Of a DNA stretch of 64,000 nt, positions 32,273-38,688 are shown one piece after another. The notes below the pieces were generated by a model. It ran no database searches and was not told the origin of the DNA. It was given only the letters and a program-made list of their open reading frames with translations. The stretch's first letter is position 1, and every line of letters begins with the position of its first letter. The translations under genes and the position numbers were made by a program. Location: assembly GCA_028285415.1 (NCBI GenBank), contig JANQPF010000005.1:620001-684000 (forward strand), given 5' to 3'. Source of the stretch: Pseudomonadales bacterium (GTDB lineage: Bacteria > Pseudomonadota > Gammaproteobacteria > Pseudomonadales > Azotimanducaceae).

Positions 32273-34258
32273 TCAGCGCGCTCCGGCGTTCTCCGTTTGC
32301 TCTGATTCCTCTCGTTCCGCACGGCGCATGGTCAACACGTGCATTTCCTCGATATCGAGGCCACCGTCACCGTTCTTGTCGACCGCTTTGAATCCCTGCA
32401 CGAGCTGCTTCTTCATGCGCTTCGGCAGCTCACGCCAGCTGAGCTTGCCGTCGATGTTCTGGTCGAGGAAACCGACAAACTGGGTAGTCCGTGCCAGCAT
32501 CTTGTCGTGAATCGGCGCCTCCGTGGTTTCGTTGACGTAGGTGTAGGAGAAAGCGCCATACAACATCTCGTCCCAGGACTGCAGCCCCCAGGGCACCTCG
32601 CGATCCGGGTCCGGGTTGCCGGGATTGGCTGCAGAGTTGTCGTACCAGGTGGTGTGGACCAGTTTGGTACCCGCTTCGAGACGCTTTGGCTCGACGAACT
32701 CGTAGGTGCGCTGCCAGTTAAAGTCGTAGTTTGGCACGCTCAGGATCACCTCCTTGCTGCCATCGGGCTTCCACAGCTCGAATTTGGAAGCGACGCCGCG
32801 ATAGTGCGCGTGCGGTACCAGATCGTGGAGCACCGCTTCCTTGTCGAAATGATAGTAGGCGACCTCGGCATGGCGCGCCTCGCGCGGCGGGATCTTGATG
32901 GTCGGATTGACCACTACGTCCTGGCGGTAGAAGTTTTCCGGGGTCTCCGTGTGGAAGTACAGGCCAATCCTGGAGCGGTCTACCGTCTCGCGGCCGACGG
33001 GGGTGTAGTGCATCTGAAACAGGAATTCTCCACCCGGTGGAATGTACACGCCGGTGCCCTTCGGAAAGGTGTGCGATTCGTTGCCGGGTGCATAGCCGAT
33101 GAGGTAGTTGTCGAAGACGCCGCTATCGCGCCGCAGCTGCGTGGTATCCGCGTCGACTGTTCCGGCGAGAATGTGATGCACCACTTCGCGGTCGCCCGGA
33201 ACGACGGTTGCCGCCTTGATCCAGACGCCGGTATCCAGCGGGTTGGAAACGGTCGGGAACTGATAGTCGACCACACCGCTGACCGGCACCGTGTAGGCGG
33301 GTATGTCTAGAACGAGATCAGGCTCTCCGAGCGGCCATTCGACGATGGTCACCTGGGACTCGGCCAGAGGGTCGGGCCCGGAGCCGCGCGGCGCGCCGGC
33401 TTCGATCCAGTGCACCAGCGTCTGCAGCTCTTCGGTGCTGAGGGAAATGTCGTTTTTCCACACGCCGATATGGGGGTCGGCATGCCAGGGCGGCATGCGT
33501 TTGGTGCGCACCACCTCGCGGATCATGGGGGCAAAACCCTGCACCATCGTATAGCTCGACATCGCCCAGGGCCCGAGGCCTCCTTCCGTGTGGCAAACCA
33601 CGCACTTCTCTTTCAGCATGGGCGCAATGGTTTCGCTGTACGAAATACCTGCGTGCTGCTGATTCTTTTGTGGAAAGTTGATCAAGCAGCCCACGGCCTC
33701 GCGGCGGGCGGTTGCCACCGTTTGTCCCTGCATGATGGCGTCGATCGCGTCCGCGGCGTAGTGCGCTTTGGCTTCGTCGAGCTGACGTTCGTAAACGAGG
33801 CGGTCGTTCACCGGACCCCGATAGGCGATCTCCCAGGTTTTCGGATTGAGCACCAGCACTTCGCCGGTGCGCACGAGATCGAGGGATTCGCCGATGATCT
33901 GACTCTCGTCATTCAGAATGGGCATGTCGACGCCGTATTTTTCGGCTTCCGCGCGGATACTCTCGCGGGTGTCCTGCAAGTTGGCATTCAACATCAGAAA
34001 GCGCACGTTCTGCTCGGCGTAAGCATCACGCAGTGCTTTGAAGTCAGGCAGGGCGTTACGCACGATCGGGCAGCCGTTGCCCTGGATCATCAACACAACC
34101 GCGGCTGCGTCCTTGTGATAGTAGAGTTCGTGCGCGTCGCCGTGCTGGTCGAGGAGCACGAAGTTGTCGACACGGCTGGCGTGTGCGAAGCCGGCCAGGG
34201 TGGTGAGCACCACGGCGAGAACCGGCGTGAGAACCTTGGAAAGTAGAATGCGCGGCAT
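32273..34258 (-). CDS. Redoxin / cytochrome c / PHM-like copper monooxygenase / EF-hand fusion protein
   Basis: 661 residues, exported (signal peptide ends GFAHA). (1) A thioredoxin-fold redoxin at about 28-165 has a single Cys63 (GNGCPIVRN). (2) A c-type cytochrome segment has CVVCH at 219-223 with a candidate Met ligand in KRMPPWHAD. (3) A two-domain copper type II monooxygenase region at about 300-580 shows all six ligands expected from peptidylglycine alpha-hydroxylating monooxygenase: His361-His362 (VVHHIL), His417 (MHYT), His483-x-His485 (PHAHYRG) and Met565 (DEMLYG). (4) A C-terminal EF-hand pair has DQNIDGKL and DKNGDGGLD. This architecture implies an electron-fed copper oxygenase in the periplasm. 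ATG 34258 is preferred over 34297 for its GGAG and signal peptide. Confidence 0.85.
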   Translation of the reverse strand: MPRILLSKVLTPVLAVVLTTLAGFAHASRVDNFVLLDQHGDAHELYYHKDAAAVVLMIQGNGCPIVRNALPDFKALRDAYAEQNVRFLMLNANLQDTRESIRAEAEKYGVDMPILNDESQIIGESLDLVRTGEVLVLNPKTWEIAYRGPVNDRLVYERQLDEAKAHYAADAIDAIMQGQTVATARREAVGCLINFPQKNQQHAGISYSETIAPMLKEKCVVCHTEGGLGPWAMSSYTMVQGFAPMIREVVRTKRMPPWHADPHIGVWKNDISLSTEELQTLVHWIEAGAPRGSGPDPLAESQVTIVEWPLGEPDLVLDIPAYTVPVSGVVDYQFPTVSNPLDTGVWIKAATVVPGDREVVHHILAGTVDADTTQLRRDSGVFDNYLIGYAPGNESHTFPKGTGVYIPPGGEFLFQMHYTPVGRETVDRSRIGLYFHTETPENFYRQDVVVNPTIKIPPREARHAEVAYYHFDKEAVLHDLVPHAHYRGVASKFELWKPDGSKEVILSVPNYDFNWQRTYEFVEPKRLEAGTKLVHTTWYDNSAANPGNPDPDREVPWGLQSWDEMLYGAFSYTYVNETTEAPIHDKMLARTTQFVGFLDQNIDGKLSWRELPKRMKKQLVQGFKAVDKNGDGGLDIEEMHVLTMRRAEREESEQTENAGAR

Positions 34259-34317: not shown

Positions 34318-35184
34318 TCAGTGGGCTTTGAGGAACTCGAAGATGGCTTCGTATGCCTGCTGGTATTGCGCCTCCGTAAAGCCGGAGTGGTTGCCGTCTT
34401 TCAGTGTAACCAGCTCGTTGGGCGTGGTCAGCGCTGAATGAAACGACTCCGCCTGATCGAACGGCACCACGGAATCCGCTGTGCCGTGGATGGTAATGAT
34501 GGCCGGTGCGTCGTCGTTGATGAGGAGAACCGGGGAATACGCCGTAGACACCTCCGCCACCTTCTCCCGCGAGCCCGCCCAGGAACGCGCGTAGTTACGG
34601 TCAGCCATTGCACCGTTCAGGTATTCGTCGACGAGCTCAATATCGGTGATGCCGAACCAGTTGACCACGGTCCGCGGCGGTGTGCTGGTGCGGCAGGGAT
34701 GGTCGCCTGTGGTGTTCAAGAGTCCGACGGCGAGAGAGAGGTGACCACCGGCGCTGGCGCCTGAGACGACAATCTGATCCGTTGGCTGGCCGCGTTCAGC
34801 GAGCTGCTCCGCGATGGTTTTGTAAGCGCACATGACGTCATCCACCGCCTGGGGGGCGGTGCCGGGTCCCTGCCTGTAGTTGAGGTTGTAGACCGTCCAG
34901 CCTCGCTCCAGGTAGGGAATCAGCTGCGGAGTTTCTCCCACCTTGTCACCGGCTATCCAGCCGCCGCCGTGAATCCAGACCAGCGTTGGACGCGCGCTGG
35001 TGTCGGGTTTGAAGTAGGTGGGTTCGCCCACACGCTGACCGTGGATATACACATCCATCTTCTGCTGCGGATCGTCTCCGTAGGCGACGTCGGTCTGCTT
35101 GACGACGCGATGCGACCAGAAGCCATCGGCCAGGGCCGCGTTGGACAGTACTAGCAGGGCGAAGGCGGTAACGAGTTTCTTCAT
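34318..35184 (-). CDS. Exported alpha/beta hydrolase (carboxylesterase family)
   Basis: 288 residues starting MKKLVTAFALLVLSNAALADG, a clear signal peptide. The esterase/BD-FAE-type features are WIHGGGW for the oxyanion hole, GASAGGHL with the nucleophile Ser, HGTADSVVPF with Asp and GNHSGF with His. It would hydrolyse esters in the periplasm. ATG 35184 is chosen because it starts the signal peptide; an earlier in-frame start at 35250 overlaps the cysZ-like gene. It precedes the fusion protein gene by 59 bases. Confidence 0.88.
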   Translation of the reverse strand: MKKLVTAFALLVLSNAALADGFWSHRVVKQTDVAYGDDPQQKMDVYIHGQRVGEPTYFKPDTSARPTLVWIHGGGWIAGDKVGETPQLIPYLERGWTVYNLNYRQGPGTAPQAVDDVMCAYKTIAEQLAERGQPTDQIVVSGASAGGHLSLAVGLLNTTGDHPCRTSTPPRTVVNWFGITDIELVDEYLNGAMADRNYARSWAGSREKVAEVSTAYSPVLLINDDAPAIITIHGTADSVVPFDQAESFHSALTTPNELVTLKDGNHSGFTEAQYQQAYEAIFEFLKAH

Positions 35185-35197
35185 GGCGTTGGTGTTC

Positions 35198-35911
35198 TCA
35201 AGTAGAGGATCGGGCGTAGAGATCGCGCATGAGCAGCGTGCCACCGACAACTGCCACAGGGGCGATCAGAAAATTCAACAAGGGGATGGACATCCCCACC
35301 GTGGTGCAGAGGCCAAAACCGAGCGCGCTTGCGCGATGTTGTTTCAGTTTGCTCAGCGTGCTCTTGAAATCAGCGCCGCGGTTTTCGGTGCTGTAGTCGC
35401 AGAACTGCACGGCCATCATCCATGCGCCGAAGCCTAGCCACAGTAGCGGCGAGATGACGTTGATCACGGGGATGACGCTGACGATGAGCAGAAGCAGCAG
35501 ACGCGGCAGATGGTAGGCGAGCTTTCTCAGCTCGCGCTTGAGCGCCGGGGCAACTTCCTGCCACCAGGCGCGCTGCGGTGGATTGCTCGGCGGGTCTACC
35601 CGTATGGAAAGCTCACCCAGGAACGGTGAACCCACAATTGCGGCGAGGAGGCCAAACATCCACGCGCCTATCAATATGCCGGCGAGATAGAGCAGGGGAA
35701 CGAGCAGCCATTCGAGCCACGTGAGCCATCCCGGTAGATTCGAGACGAGATAGTTCGACAAGTCGCTCACATAGCTGAAGCCGAGCCACAGGCCGGCGAC
35801 GATGACCACAAAACTGACTGCGGCGGGCATCATGACAAAAGGCCGGACTTCGGGCTTGAAGGTCATGGACAGGCCCGTGAAGAAGTTCTGGATGCCCAGG
35901 CCGAGCGCCAT
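35198..35911 (-). CDS. CysZ-like sulfate transporter / EI24 domain protein
   Basis: 237 residues with four long hydrophobic segments and the EI24/CysZ features SPFLGELSIRVD and a cytoplasmic helical hairpin with LKRELRKLAYHLPRLLLLL. CysZ moves sulfate into the cell for cysteine synthesis. Here the neighbours are a class III aminotransferase (start overlaps its stop by one base) and a Rieske oxygenase rather than cysteine genes. The relationship is therefore inferred by sequence only. Confidence 0.82.
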   Translation of the reverse strand: MALGLGIQNFFTGLSMTFKPEVRPFVMMPAAVSFVVIVAGLWLGFSYVSDLSNYLVSNLPGWLTWLEWLLVPLLYLAGILIGAWMFGLLAAIVGSPFLGELSIRVDPPSNPPQRAWWQEVAPALKRELRKLAYHLPRLLLLLIVSVIPVINVISPLLWLGFGAWMMAVQFCDYSTENRGADFKSTLSKLKQHRASALGFGLCTTVGMSIPLLNFLIAPVAVVGGTLLMRDLYARSST

Positions 35912-37224
35912 CAGCCGTTATCCAACGTTTCGTCAACACACTCGAGCAGGGTGTCGACCATCTGATCGATTTCGGACTCGGAGATGACGAACGGCGGGCC
36001 CATGCAGACGACGTCGCGCACGTCACCGGTCCCACCGCCGTAGAAGAACACCCCCTTGTCGAGTCCCTTCGCGACGATGTGGTTGGTCACCGCGTTGTCC
36101 GCTGGGCAGCGCTCCAGCGTCTCGCGATTCTGCACAATCTCGATGGCCGCCAGGAGACCGCGGCCGCGCACTTCAGCCACGTGCGGATGATTGGAGAACG
36201 CGTTCTGCAGCCGTTCCTGCAGGTAGACGCCGCGCTCGGCAGCCTGTTGCACCAGGTTCTCCTCGCGCATGATGGCAAGCACTTCTGCCGAGGCCGCACA
36301 CGCGGCCGGATGTGCGCCAAACGTGTTGAACATCACCTGGAAACCAGCGTTCTGTATAGCCGCGCCAATCTCCTCGGTGGCAAACACGCCTCCCAGCGGT
36401 GCGTAACCGCCGGCGAGCCCTTTTCCTGAAATGACGATGTCCGGCATGATCGGCCAGTGCTGATAGCCGAAATTCTTACCGGTACGGCCAAAACCGGTCA
36501 TCACCTCGTCGAGAATGAGGACAACGCCGTACTCGTCGCAGATTTCGCGAACGCTCGGCCAGTAGTCGTCCGGTGGCACAATCGCGCCACCGGAAGAGCC
36601 GGTGATCGGCTCGGCCAGAAATGCCGCTACCGTGTCCGGCCCTTCGGATTCGATGACGTCGCGCAGGAGGTCTGCATAGTACGCGCCGGTGTCGTGGTGG
36701 AAGCTGCCGAGCGGACAGCGCAGCGGGTAAGGCGTATCCACGACCGGAAAGCGCGGCATTGCAGATTCCAGGCCTTTCTTCCGCGCCGGATGCCCGGATA
36801 TCGACGCGGTGGCGAGGGTGGTGCCGTGGTAGCTGATGGAGCGGCCGATGATTTTGGTTTTGCTGGTTGCGCCGATCGCCTGCTGATAGTGCAGCGCAAT
36901 TTTCATGGCCGCTTCGTTGGATTCCGTCCCCCCGGAGGTGCAGTGGATGCGGCTGAGTTCCGGTGGCAGCCAGTGTCCGCGGAGCTCTTTCAACATGGCC
37001 TCGCGGGCGGGCGTCAGCCACGGCGGCACGACATAGCTCGTGTCGAGCGTTGCCCTGGCGACGGCGTCTGCCACGCGCTGCCGGCCATGCCCGATGTTCG
37101 ACACGATGGCACCCCCGGCGGCGTCGAGAATCTGCTGGCCGGAGCGGGTGTACAGATGCACACCCTCGGCGCGTTCGATATAGATGTTCCGTCCCGTCAG
37201 GAAGGGCCAGGCGACGTCGCTCAT
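35911..37224 (-). CDS. PLP-dependent class III aminotransferase
   Basis: 437 residues. The PLP Lys lies in VISGKGLAGGYAPLGG, preceded by LILDEVMTGFGRTG with the Asp that binds the pyridine nitrogen. The N-terminal region EGVHLYTRSGQQILDAAGG and CTSGGTESNEAAMK are also typical. The class includes omega-transaminases acting on beta-alanine, 4-aminobutyrate or polyamines. It is three bases downstream of the Rieske oxygenase stop and overlaps cysZ, so a three-gene operon is likely. Confidence 0.93.
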   Translation of the reverse strand: MSDVAWPFLTGRNIYIERAEGVHLYTRSGQQILDAAGGAIVSNIGHGRQRVADAVARATLDTSYVVPPWLTPAREAMLKELRGHWLPPELSRIHCTSGGTESNEAAMKIALHYQQAIGATSKTKIIGRSISYHGTTLATASISGHPARKKGLESAMPRFPVVDTPYPLRCPLGSFHHDTGAYYADLLRDVIESEGPDTVAAFLAEPITGSSGGAIVPPDDYWPSVREICDEYGVVLILDEVMTGFGRTGKNFGYQHWPIMPDIVISGKGLAGGYAPLGGVFATEEIGAAIQNAGFQVMFNTFGAHPAACAASAEVLAIMREENLVQQAAERGVYLQERLQNAFSNHPHVAEVRGRGLLAAIEIVQNRETLERCPADNAVTNHIVAKGLDKGVFFYGGGTGDVRDVVCMGPPFVISESEIDQMVDTLLECVDETLDNG

Positions 37225-37227
37225 GAA

Positions 37228-38613
37228 TTACTTCTCCAGATACTCGTCGAGGGTTTTGTGCAAGCGGCGGATGCGGACTTCCTGATAGTTACCGAGGGTT
37301 TGTCCGGTTTTACTGGCGGCTTTGATGCCGGCCCGCTGGCGATAGAAGTTTTCCGTGTCCTGGTCGAGGACATGGGCAAGCCCCGTCGCCACAAAGGCGT
37401 CGACCGTTTTGTATTCATCGTCCATGCCGAGCTTGATCACCTCGGCGGGTGGCGGCCGCTCACCGTTGTCCGGGATGGGTTTGAGCAGCATGATCTCGTG
37501 GATGCAGTGATCGACGTCCAGCGGACGGAAGCGATAAACGAGCGGGATGCCGACGCCCGGGAAAAAGCAGGCGTTCGGGAACAGGAAATACTCGATGGAA
37601 TCGAGCATCTCCGAGGTGCTGACGTGGCTGAGATCAGCCCCGAGTTCTGCGCCGAGCCGGCTGCGCATGATGTCGGCATGTTGCGCCCGCGCGCTCGCGC
37701 CTTCCGGCAGGTCGCCGGGGTCGTGTCCGAGGGATGCAAAAAGCTCCTGCTCGCTCAGGCGCTTCGGCAGATGCGGGCTCGGGTAGCCCACGGTATGGAC
37801 AAACCGCGAGACGTGTCTGCCGAACACGTCGTACTGCGCGTTGGCGTCTCCTGCAGTGCGTAACCCTTCCGGGTGCGTCGCGAGCACGTGGAATGCTTCC
37901 AGGAAACCCTCCACGCACATTTTCCAATTGCCGGGCAAGGTTTTCTGCATGTGGAGGTGAACGTAGCGCTCCGACAGCGGCCAGCCGGCGAAGTGTTCAG
38001 GCAGGACCTCCAGATAGTCGGCCAGGGGACCGGCGTCTCGTGAAAAGTTGACGAAGACAAACCCGTTCCAGGTATCACATGGCAGCTCGGTCAACCCGAA
38101 GTTCTCGTCTTCGACGTGGGGAAAATCCCAGCGGCACGGAATTTCCCGCAACGACCCGTCCAGGTGCCAGCTCATGCCGTGAAACGGGCAGCGCAGAAAC
38201 TGTTTGCCGCTGCCTGTGCTGCCCGCGTCGGCAAACTGCATGCCCCGATGCGGGCAGGAGTTGACGAACGCGCGAATTAGGCCGGTCTCGTCACGCACAA
38301 CCAGGGCGGAATACGGACCGACGTCGTAGACGTGGAAGTCCCCGGCGTGCGGGATGTGTTCCTCGCGGCAGGCCCATTGCCAGGTGCGGCCCCACATCCG
38401 TTCGATTTCTGCGTCGTACATGGTGGGATCGGTGTAGCGCGAGAACGGGATGTCGGCGTCACCCAGGAACTCGAACGCTTCAGCGGTCAGGGCCGCAGGC
38501 GCGTTGTCACCGTCCGCGATGATGATTTCCCGGGTGCTCGGACCCGGGCACCGGGCTTCGCCGGGCGCAAGATTCGGATCCCCGGGTGCGTTCAGATCGT
38601 ATGTCTCGGCCAT
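37228..38613 (-). CDS. Rieske non-heme iron oxygenase, alpha subunit
   Basis: 461 residues. Rieske 2Fe-2S site: CPHRGM (C-x-H) and CPFHGMSW (C-x2-H). The C-terminal catalytic domain has VEGFLEAFHVLATHPE with two His iron ligands and a bridging acidic residue, then FLFPNACF. It is the oxygenase component of a multicomponent ring- or side-chain-hydroxylating system. No reductase or small subunit is adjacent. ATG 38613 follows GGGGAGAGACC. A class III aminotransferase and a CysZ-like protein follow in the same unit. Confidence 0.92.
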   Translation of the reverse strand: MAETYDLNAPGDPNLAPGEARCPGPSTREIIIADGDNAPAALTAEAFEFLGDADIPFSRYTDPTMYDAEIERMWGRTWQWACREEHIPHAGDFHVYDVGPYSALVVRDETGLIRAFVNSCPHRGMQFADAGSTGSGKQFLRCPFHGMSWHLDGSLREIPCRWDFPHVEDENFGLTELPCDTWNGFVFVNFSRDAGPLADYLEVLPEHFAGWPLSERYVHLHMQKTLPGNWKMCVEGFLEAFHVLATHPEGLRTAGDANAQYDVFGRHVSRFVHTVGYPSPHLPKRLSEQELFASLGHDPGDLPEGASARAQHADIMRSRLGAELGADLSHVSTSEMLDSIEYFLFPNACFFPGVGIPLVYRFRPLDVDHCIHEIMLLKPIPDNGERPPPAEVIKLGMDDEYKTVDAFVATGLAHVLDQDTENFYRQRAGIKAASKTGQTLGNYQEVRIRRLHKTLDEYLEK

Positions 38614-38688
38614 GGTCTCTCCCCGGTGGCCCATCCACCAAAGCCCATCGATAGTAGCCGTTCTCGTCAGCGTGCTAAAGTCTGGCGC

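Follow-up and report, generated by a model that had tools for sequence, protein, structure and literature searches.

An exported bacterial fusion of redoxin, cytochrome c and a PHM/DBH-fold copper domain: a candidate monooxygenase with a probable built-in electron donor

Introduction

Can a bacterial copper monooxygenase carry its own electron donor within the same polypeptide? Peptidylglycine alpha-hydroxylating monooxygenase (PHM) activates O2 at its CuM site and hydroxylates an aliphatic C-H bond of its substrate, and in animals PHM and the related enzyme DBH serve to produce amidated peptide hormones and noradrenaline. In PHM, each copper receives one electron from ascorbate (PMC6123673), and a 2020 review of metalloproteomes places PHM and DBM among the eukaryotic proteins only (PMC7435645). 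The question is raised by a gene within the 64,000-nucleotide stretch of Pseudomonadales DNA analyzed here (the window), which encodes a redoxin, a c-type haem domain, and a PHM/DBH-fold copper domain in a single chain. Our main reading, to which we assign a probability of roughly 0.6, is that its product would be an exported dicopper monooxygenase, structurally of the PHM/DBH class, that draws its electrons from its own cytochrome c and not from ascorbate.

The gene encodes a single multidomain chain

The gene is located on the minus strand (34258..32273), as are all of the window features described below, and it consists of 661 codons extending from an ATG to a stop. The gene is real; the plus-strand reading of 32273-34258 is interrupted by internal stops. 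A sequence-only reading of this DNA had described one 661-residue chain at the same coordinates, which is correct, and its residue numbers for Cys63, the CVVCH site (219-223), His361/362, His417, His483/485, Met565, and two EF-hand loops (599-610 and 627-638) were right as well. From its N-terminus, the chain comprises a signal peptide, the redoxin, the c-type haem domain, the copper domain, and two EF-hands. The putative signal peptide occupies residues 1-27 (MPRILLSKVLTPVLAVVLTTLAGFAHA; 34178..34258) and includes a basic start, a hydrophobic core, and an AHA cleavage motif. Hydrophobic leaders are present in the sampled relatives too, and the protein is probably exported to the periplasm of this marine-type bacterium. 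The only Pfam models above cut-off in the window protein were AhpC-TSA (residues 30-150), Redoxin, and EF-hand_5, while cytochrome c models fell below cut-off. An AlphaFold2 model of the whole chain, from which haem is absent, yielded a mean pLDDT of 91.7 and a pTM of 0.89, and this pTM over the full chain suggests that the domains are packed in a fixed arrangement. At the C-terminus, EF-hand loop 1 (residues 599-610, DQNIDGKLSWRE; 32429..32464) and loop 2 (residues 627-638; 32345..32380; Pfam EF-hand_5, 3.3e-6) both read as canonical 12-residue D..D..D..E calcium loops, judging from the sequence and the EF-hand_5 match. This tail is optional, as it could be aligned in about three quarters of 62 homologues (Asp at column 599 in 47/62) and is missing from about one quarter.

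The copper domain shares the fold and ligands of PHM and DBH

The predicted dicopper domain spans residues 311-590 (32489..33328). In the predicted model, residues 313-603 matched rat PHM (1phm) with a Z of 20.6 over 265 residues at 3.4 A, and human DBH (4zel) gave the copper domain its highest score, with a Z of 22.2 over 314 residues at 4.4 A; Foldseek E-values for the domain were about 1e-13 to 1e-14. As in rat PHM, there is a double jelly-roll fold with six copper ligands at equivalent positions, whereas sequence identity is only ~17%, the protein is bacterial and fused to a cytochrome c and a redoxin, and the peptide-carboxylate residues are not kept. DBH carries a DOMON domain and resembles the window protein in having an extra domain ahead of the copper domain, but identity is 15% and a c-type cytochrome and redoxin take the place of DOMON here. 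The putative CuH ligands are His361-His362 (33173..33178; PHM H107 and H108), which align with those of a bridging relative described below (L118), and His417 (33008..33010; PHM H172), where QMHY aligns on QVHY. The putative CuM ligands are His483 and His485 (32804..32812; PHM H242 and H244) together with Met565 of a DEM motif (32564..32566; PHM M314), all of them aligned with both rat PHM and L118. Each of the six is identical in 62/62 homologues, as are Cys219, Cys222, His223, and Met255 of the cytochrome domain, and Cu2_monoox_C matched 47/62 relatives with an E of 0.1 or lower (best 1.5e-5; 0.099 for the window copper domain alone, which is under the Pfam cut-off). The features pointed out by the sequence-only reading are accordingly not chance occurrences.

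By sequence, rat PHM itself is a distant partner. The rat query, which matches the PDB chains letter for letter, gave a weak hhalign result against the domain profile (prob 18, E 0.0013), although QMHY/QVHY, PHAH/VHTH, and DEM/DEM were aligned, and a search of PDB sequences with the copper-domain profile retrieved no PHM chain at E up to 10. For this reason, the case for homology to PHM rests on the fold and on the bridge provided by L118, a 414-residue, lipoprotein-like cyt c-PHM protein from another family. L118 scores above cut-off in Pfam for Cu2_monooxygen as well as Cu2_monoox_C, and hhalign places it on the window copper domain with all ligands in register (prob 99.3, E 1e-20). Given fold Z values of 20-22 and the alignment of every ligand position through this bridge, the assignment to PHM/DBH holds, and it is unlikely that the six residues are dispersed in space. 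PHM is disulphide-bonded, whereas the window copper domain has no cysteines. Most mature homologues contain only four cysteines (Cys63, Cys191, Cys219, and Cys222), which indicates that their copper domains do without the disulphides of animal PHM. One divergent redoxin-cyt c-PHM copy (L139:915-2780) has RMS where the CuM HxH pair would be expected; it is a probable inactive or altered paralogue, and its loss of the pair is a point against the monooxygenase reading.

The common fold and copper ligands could also mean that the protein is a strict PHM, which would act in amidation by hydroxylating glycine-extended peptides (a class that had been put forward for testing), and Gln415, the counterpart of PHM Gln170 in the substrate water network, is indeed invariant in the 62 homologues. 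PHM, however, holds the peptide carboxylate with R240, N316, and Y318, and these correspond to V481, Y567, and A569 here, such that the carboxylate set of EC 1.14.17.3 is lacking and glycine-extended peptides become an unlikely class of substrate. Gln415 is also gone from the stand-alone and most of the CYT-PHM forms. We therefore consider strict peptide amidation highly improbable.

The cytochrome is linked to the copper domain across several architectures

The putative c-type cytochrome domain (residues 203-310; 33329..33652) contains the CVVCH haem c attachment site (residues 219-223; 33590..33604) and Met255 of an MPPW motif (33494..33496), which is probably the axial haem ligand, since CxxCH and this distal Met are each found in 62/62 homologues and the Met is kept in divergent members as well. 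Cytochrome_CBB3 matched 53/62 members with an E of 0.1 or lower (best 2.2e-4), although in the window protein it remains below the Pfam cut-off. Structural comparison of the domain returned the monohaem cytochrome PccH (4rlr) as its best row, a weak match with a VIA Z of 6.2 over 73 residues at 2.1 A, while Foldseek found no significant match for the domain alone in the haem-free model. The missing haem is probably responsible for these poor scores.

Per-domain profiles were run on the relatives to assign their architectures. The arrangement of the window protein, redoxin-cyt c-PHM, is accompanied by a cyt c-PHM form of about 390-470 residues (the L118, L139, L141, and L142 types), in which a PHM domain likewise comes after a cyt c bearing an MPP motif, but which lacks both the redoxin and the EF-hands. 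A third form is cyt c-cyt c-PHM (L140), whose gene adjoins those for a TlpA-like redoxin, DUF3570, and ApbE. Fusion of cytochrome c to the PHM domain is therefore seen both in the presence and in the absence of the redoxin. Two genomes have a row of stand-alone PHM genes, three in L134 and four in L135, that encloses a separate redoxin-cyt c gene; every PHM gene in these rows has a hydrophobic leader. In a midpoint-rooted copper-domain tree with some weak nodes, the stand-alone PHM genes are nested within the redoxin-containing group, and they look like the result of a later split in which the parts have been kept together. Since the split redoxin-cyt c gene has been retained beside stand-alone PHM genes, there is good evidence, from gene order and sequence, that the PHM domain acts in concert with the redoxin-cyt c module. 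With the cyt c-PHM forms that have no redoxin, this also upholds the earlier proposal that the cytochrome is functionally tied to the copper domain.

The tandem arrays of exported PHM-domain genes surrounding the redoxin-cyt c gene extend over L134:5156-9722 and L135:5367-10967, and they are flanked by genes for an old-yellow-enzyme type oxidoreductase and a BCCT transporter (by Pfam in L134 and by eye in L135). At L140:3090-8330, the CYT-CYT-PHM copper oxygenase gene is embedded in a flavinylation/thioredoxin envelope electron-transfer cluster. Clusters with ApbE, DUF3570, and thioredoxin-like genes are described as envelope electron-transfer systems (PMC8238504), and the main text of that study makes no mention of copper or monooxygenases.

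The redoxin thiols are dispensable, unlike the haem and copper sites

The redoxin (AhpC-TSA/PRX-like; residues 28-200; 33659..34177; Pfam AhpC-TSA, 7e-11) was found in 62/62 aligned homologues. In the predicted model, residues 25-203 matched the thioredoxin-like fold of the PRX-like redoxins 3u5r, 2ywi, and 2cvb with VIA Z values of 22.5-22.8 and 25-27% identity; those three are stand-alone proteins whose PDB titles assign no role, whereas the redoxin here is fused. The domain had been described as a single-Cys redoxin on the basis of Cys63 (34070..34072). This was mistaken, as Cys191 (VGCLINF; 33686..33688) is present in the same number of homologues (61/62), and the two cysteines align with the pair of the solved redoxin 2cvb, Cys191 with its GC. 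The sole exception for both is L004, a paralogue in the genome of the window. Among more divergent members, four genes lack both cysteines (L133, L136 15466-17253, L137, and L138), and a fifth (L136 4131-5897) has kept the first but lost the second. These five genes cluster in the copper-domain tree and all retain CxxCH, MPP, and the copper ligands. Because this sub-clade has dispensed with the thiols and kept the haem and copper sites, the thiols are dispensable for the conserved function, and an essential role for them is not supported. What the family conserves, as far as its sequences tell, is the cytochrome-copper core rather than the redoxin thiols.

This pattern bears upon two further explanations. 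The first is that the redoxin is a Sco/TlpA-like reductant or metallator of the protein's own copper sites, with the cytochrome accepting electrons rather than donating them. The L140 locus would fit such a role, given its TlpA-like redoxin, ApbE, and DUF3570 genes in a cluster of the electron-transfer kind (PMC8238504). However, Cys63 is not part of a CxxC or CxxxC pair, as the second conserved cysteine is Cys191, one sub-clade is without both cysteines, and the CYT-PHM forms have no redoxin at all, which makes this explanation distinctly unlikely. The second is that the protein acts as a peroxide- or copper-protective scavenger or as a sensor, with the copper domain serving as a metal sink that is not fed by the haem or the redoxin. 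An AhpC-TSA type redoxin with a conserved cysteine pair would suit a scavenger, and one paralogue in the genome of the window (L131) adjoins a hybrid histidine kinase gene. Yet strict retention applies to the CuM methionine and the two copper sites and not to the thiols, a storage protein would have no need of an invariant PHM active site, and the 8-11 matches per genome found in one family (see below) resemble substrate diversification. Overall, we judge a scavenger or sensor to be unlikely.

Proposed mechanism

The monooxygenase reading is supported by the domain content, the conservation of the ligands, the predicted PHM fold, the joint conservation of haem and copper sites, and the physical linkage between them. 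A cytochrome c is found beside the copper domain in every fused form, and so the fused cytochrome would most simply be the electron donor in place of ascorbate. In this mechanism, an envelope electron carrier would reduce the haem (His223/Met255), which would pass electrons to CuH (His361/362/417) and CuM (His483/485 and Met565), where O2 and the substrate would then react. The redoxin could be an ancestral accessory for folding, docking, or thiol upkeep with a dispensable cysteine pair, and the EF-hands would probably stabilize the C-terminus. Metal and haem loading, the direction of electron flow, and hydroxylation itself are all inferred steps, and a co-fused haem domain may instead sense or scavenge rather than donate electrons. 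Haem-domain donors are known to reduce the copper oxygenase in lytic polysaccharide monooxygenases, which offers an analogy only, as the folds are unrelated and the copper site is mononuclear.

Distribution and relation to known systems

A scan of bacterial genomes returned 432 pattern matches, 419 of which encode a relative, and almost every one of the best 80 loci carried the label Gammaproteobacteria or that of one of its subgroups. The genome of the window has four copies, and every one of the 25 genomes examined from its genus has one to four matches. Sampling of the family gave a match in 23/37 genera, and eight genomes from another family of the same order had 8-11 matches each, whereas only 3/398 genomes in a phylum-level sample matched, including that of the window. 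The family is thus patchy, yet deep where present. A protein-mode search of a plasmid collection yielded no match. The sequence-only reading knew of no characterized enzyme with this exact fusion, which stands for the literature searched; as a gene, the fusion is common in gammaproteobacterial genomes, with 419 related stretches. In the open-licence PMC literature searched, neither the redoxin-cyt c-PHM fusion nor the cyt c-PHM proteins are described. The copper chemistry is known, but the bacterial branch that carries a fused cytochrome and redoxin appears to be undescribed in that literature. More tentatively, and at somewhat short of even odds, these genes could represent a large ascorbate-independent bacterial family of PHM/DBH type that is wired to the envelope chain by its fused cytochrome c, has expanded in some lineages to around ten copies per genome that act on different substrates, and is possibly related to the ancestry of eukaryotic PHM/DBH. 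If bacteria do have a well-populated branch that shares these copper sites and has a fixed haem partner, the eukaryote-only picture would change; such a branch would also provide single-chain systems in which to study electron supply to two coppers, and new candidate enzymes for hydroxylating C-H bonds selectively.

Gene neighborhoods

Upstream of the window gene, a BD-FAE type alpha/beta hydrolase (esterase) gene (34318..35250) on the same strand stops some 60 bp short of the start codon, and 11 loci, most of them in the close clade, have a BD-FAE homologue in the upstream position. The hydrolase is a possible operon partner. The upstream esterase and EI24 genes and a saccharopine-dehydrogenase-like gene recur in the close clade only, and their sharing may be plain synteny. 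About 2-4 kb upstream of the window gene, class-III aminotransferase and Rieske oxygenase alpha-subunit genes stand in a row (35911-38634). In one clade, a gene fusing a pyridine-nucleotide-disulphide oxidoreductase to a selenophosphate synthetase (SelD-like) lies downstream on the same strand, usually within about 200 bases (L033, L035, L039, L041, L052, L054, L055, L057, L060, L064, L066, and L079). The idea of a selenocysteine at Cys63, which this neighbor suggests, was rejected, as all aligned members of that clade have Cys. The neighbors of divergent members are heterogeneous and indicate no substrate (LytR-CpsA-Psr, MFS, DUF2333, SapC, HMG-CoA reductase, TauD, NMT1-like, NUDIX, and AP endonuclease-like genes). 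Lastly, near or adjoining cyt c-PHM genes are members of an exported family of ~310 residues with a C-terminal DQCCWxN motif and 32-59% identity (L139:3054-3977, L139:17364-18296, L141:6682-7599, and L142:9417-10352). The one member scanned had no Pfam match, and proteins of this family are possible partners of the cyt c-PHM proteins.
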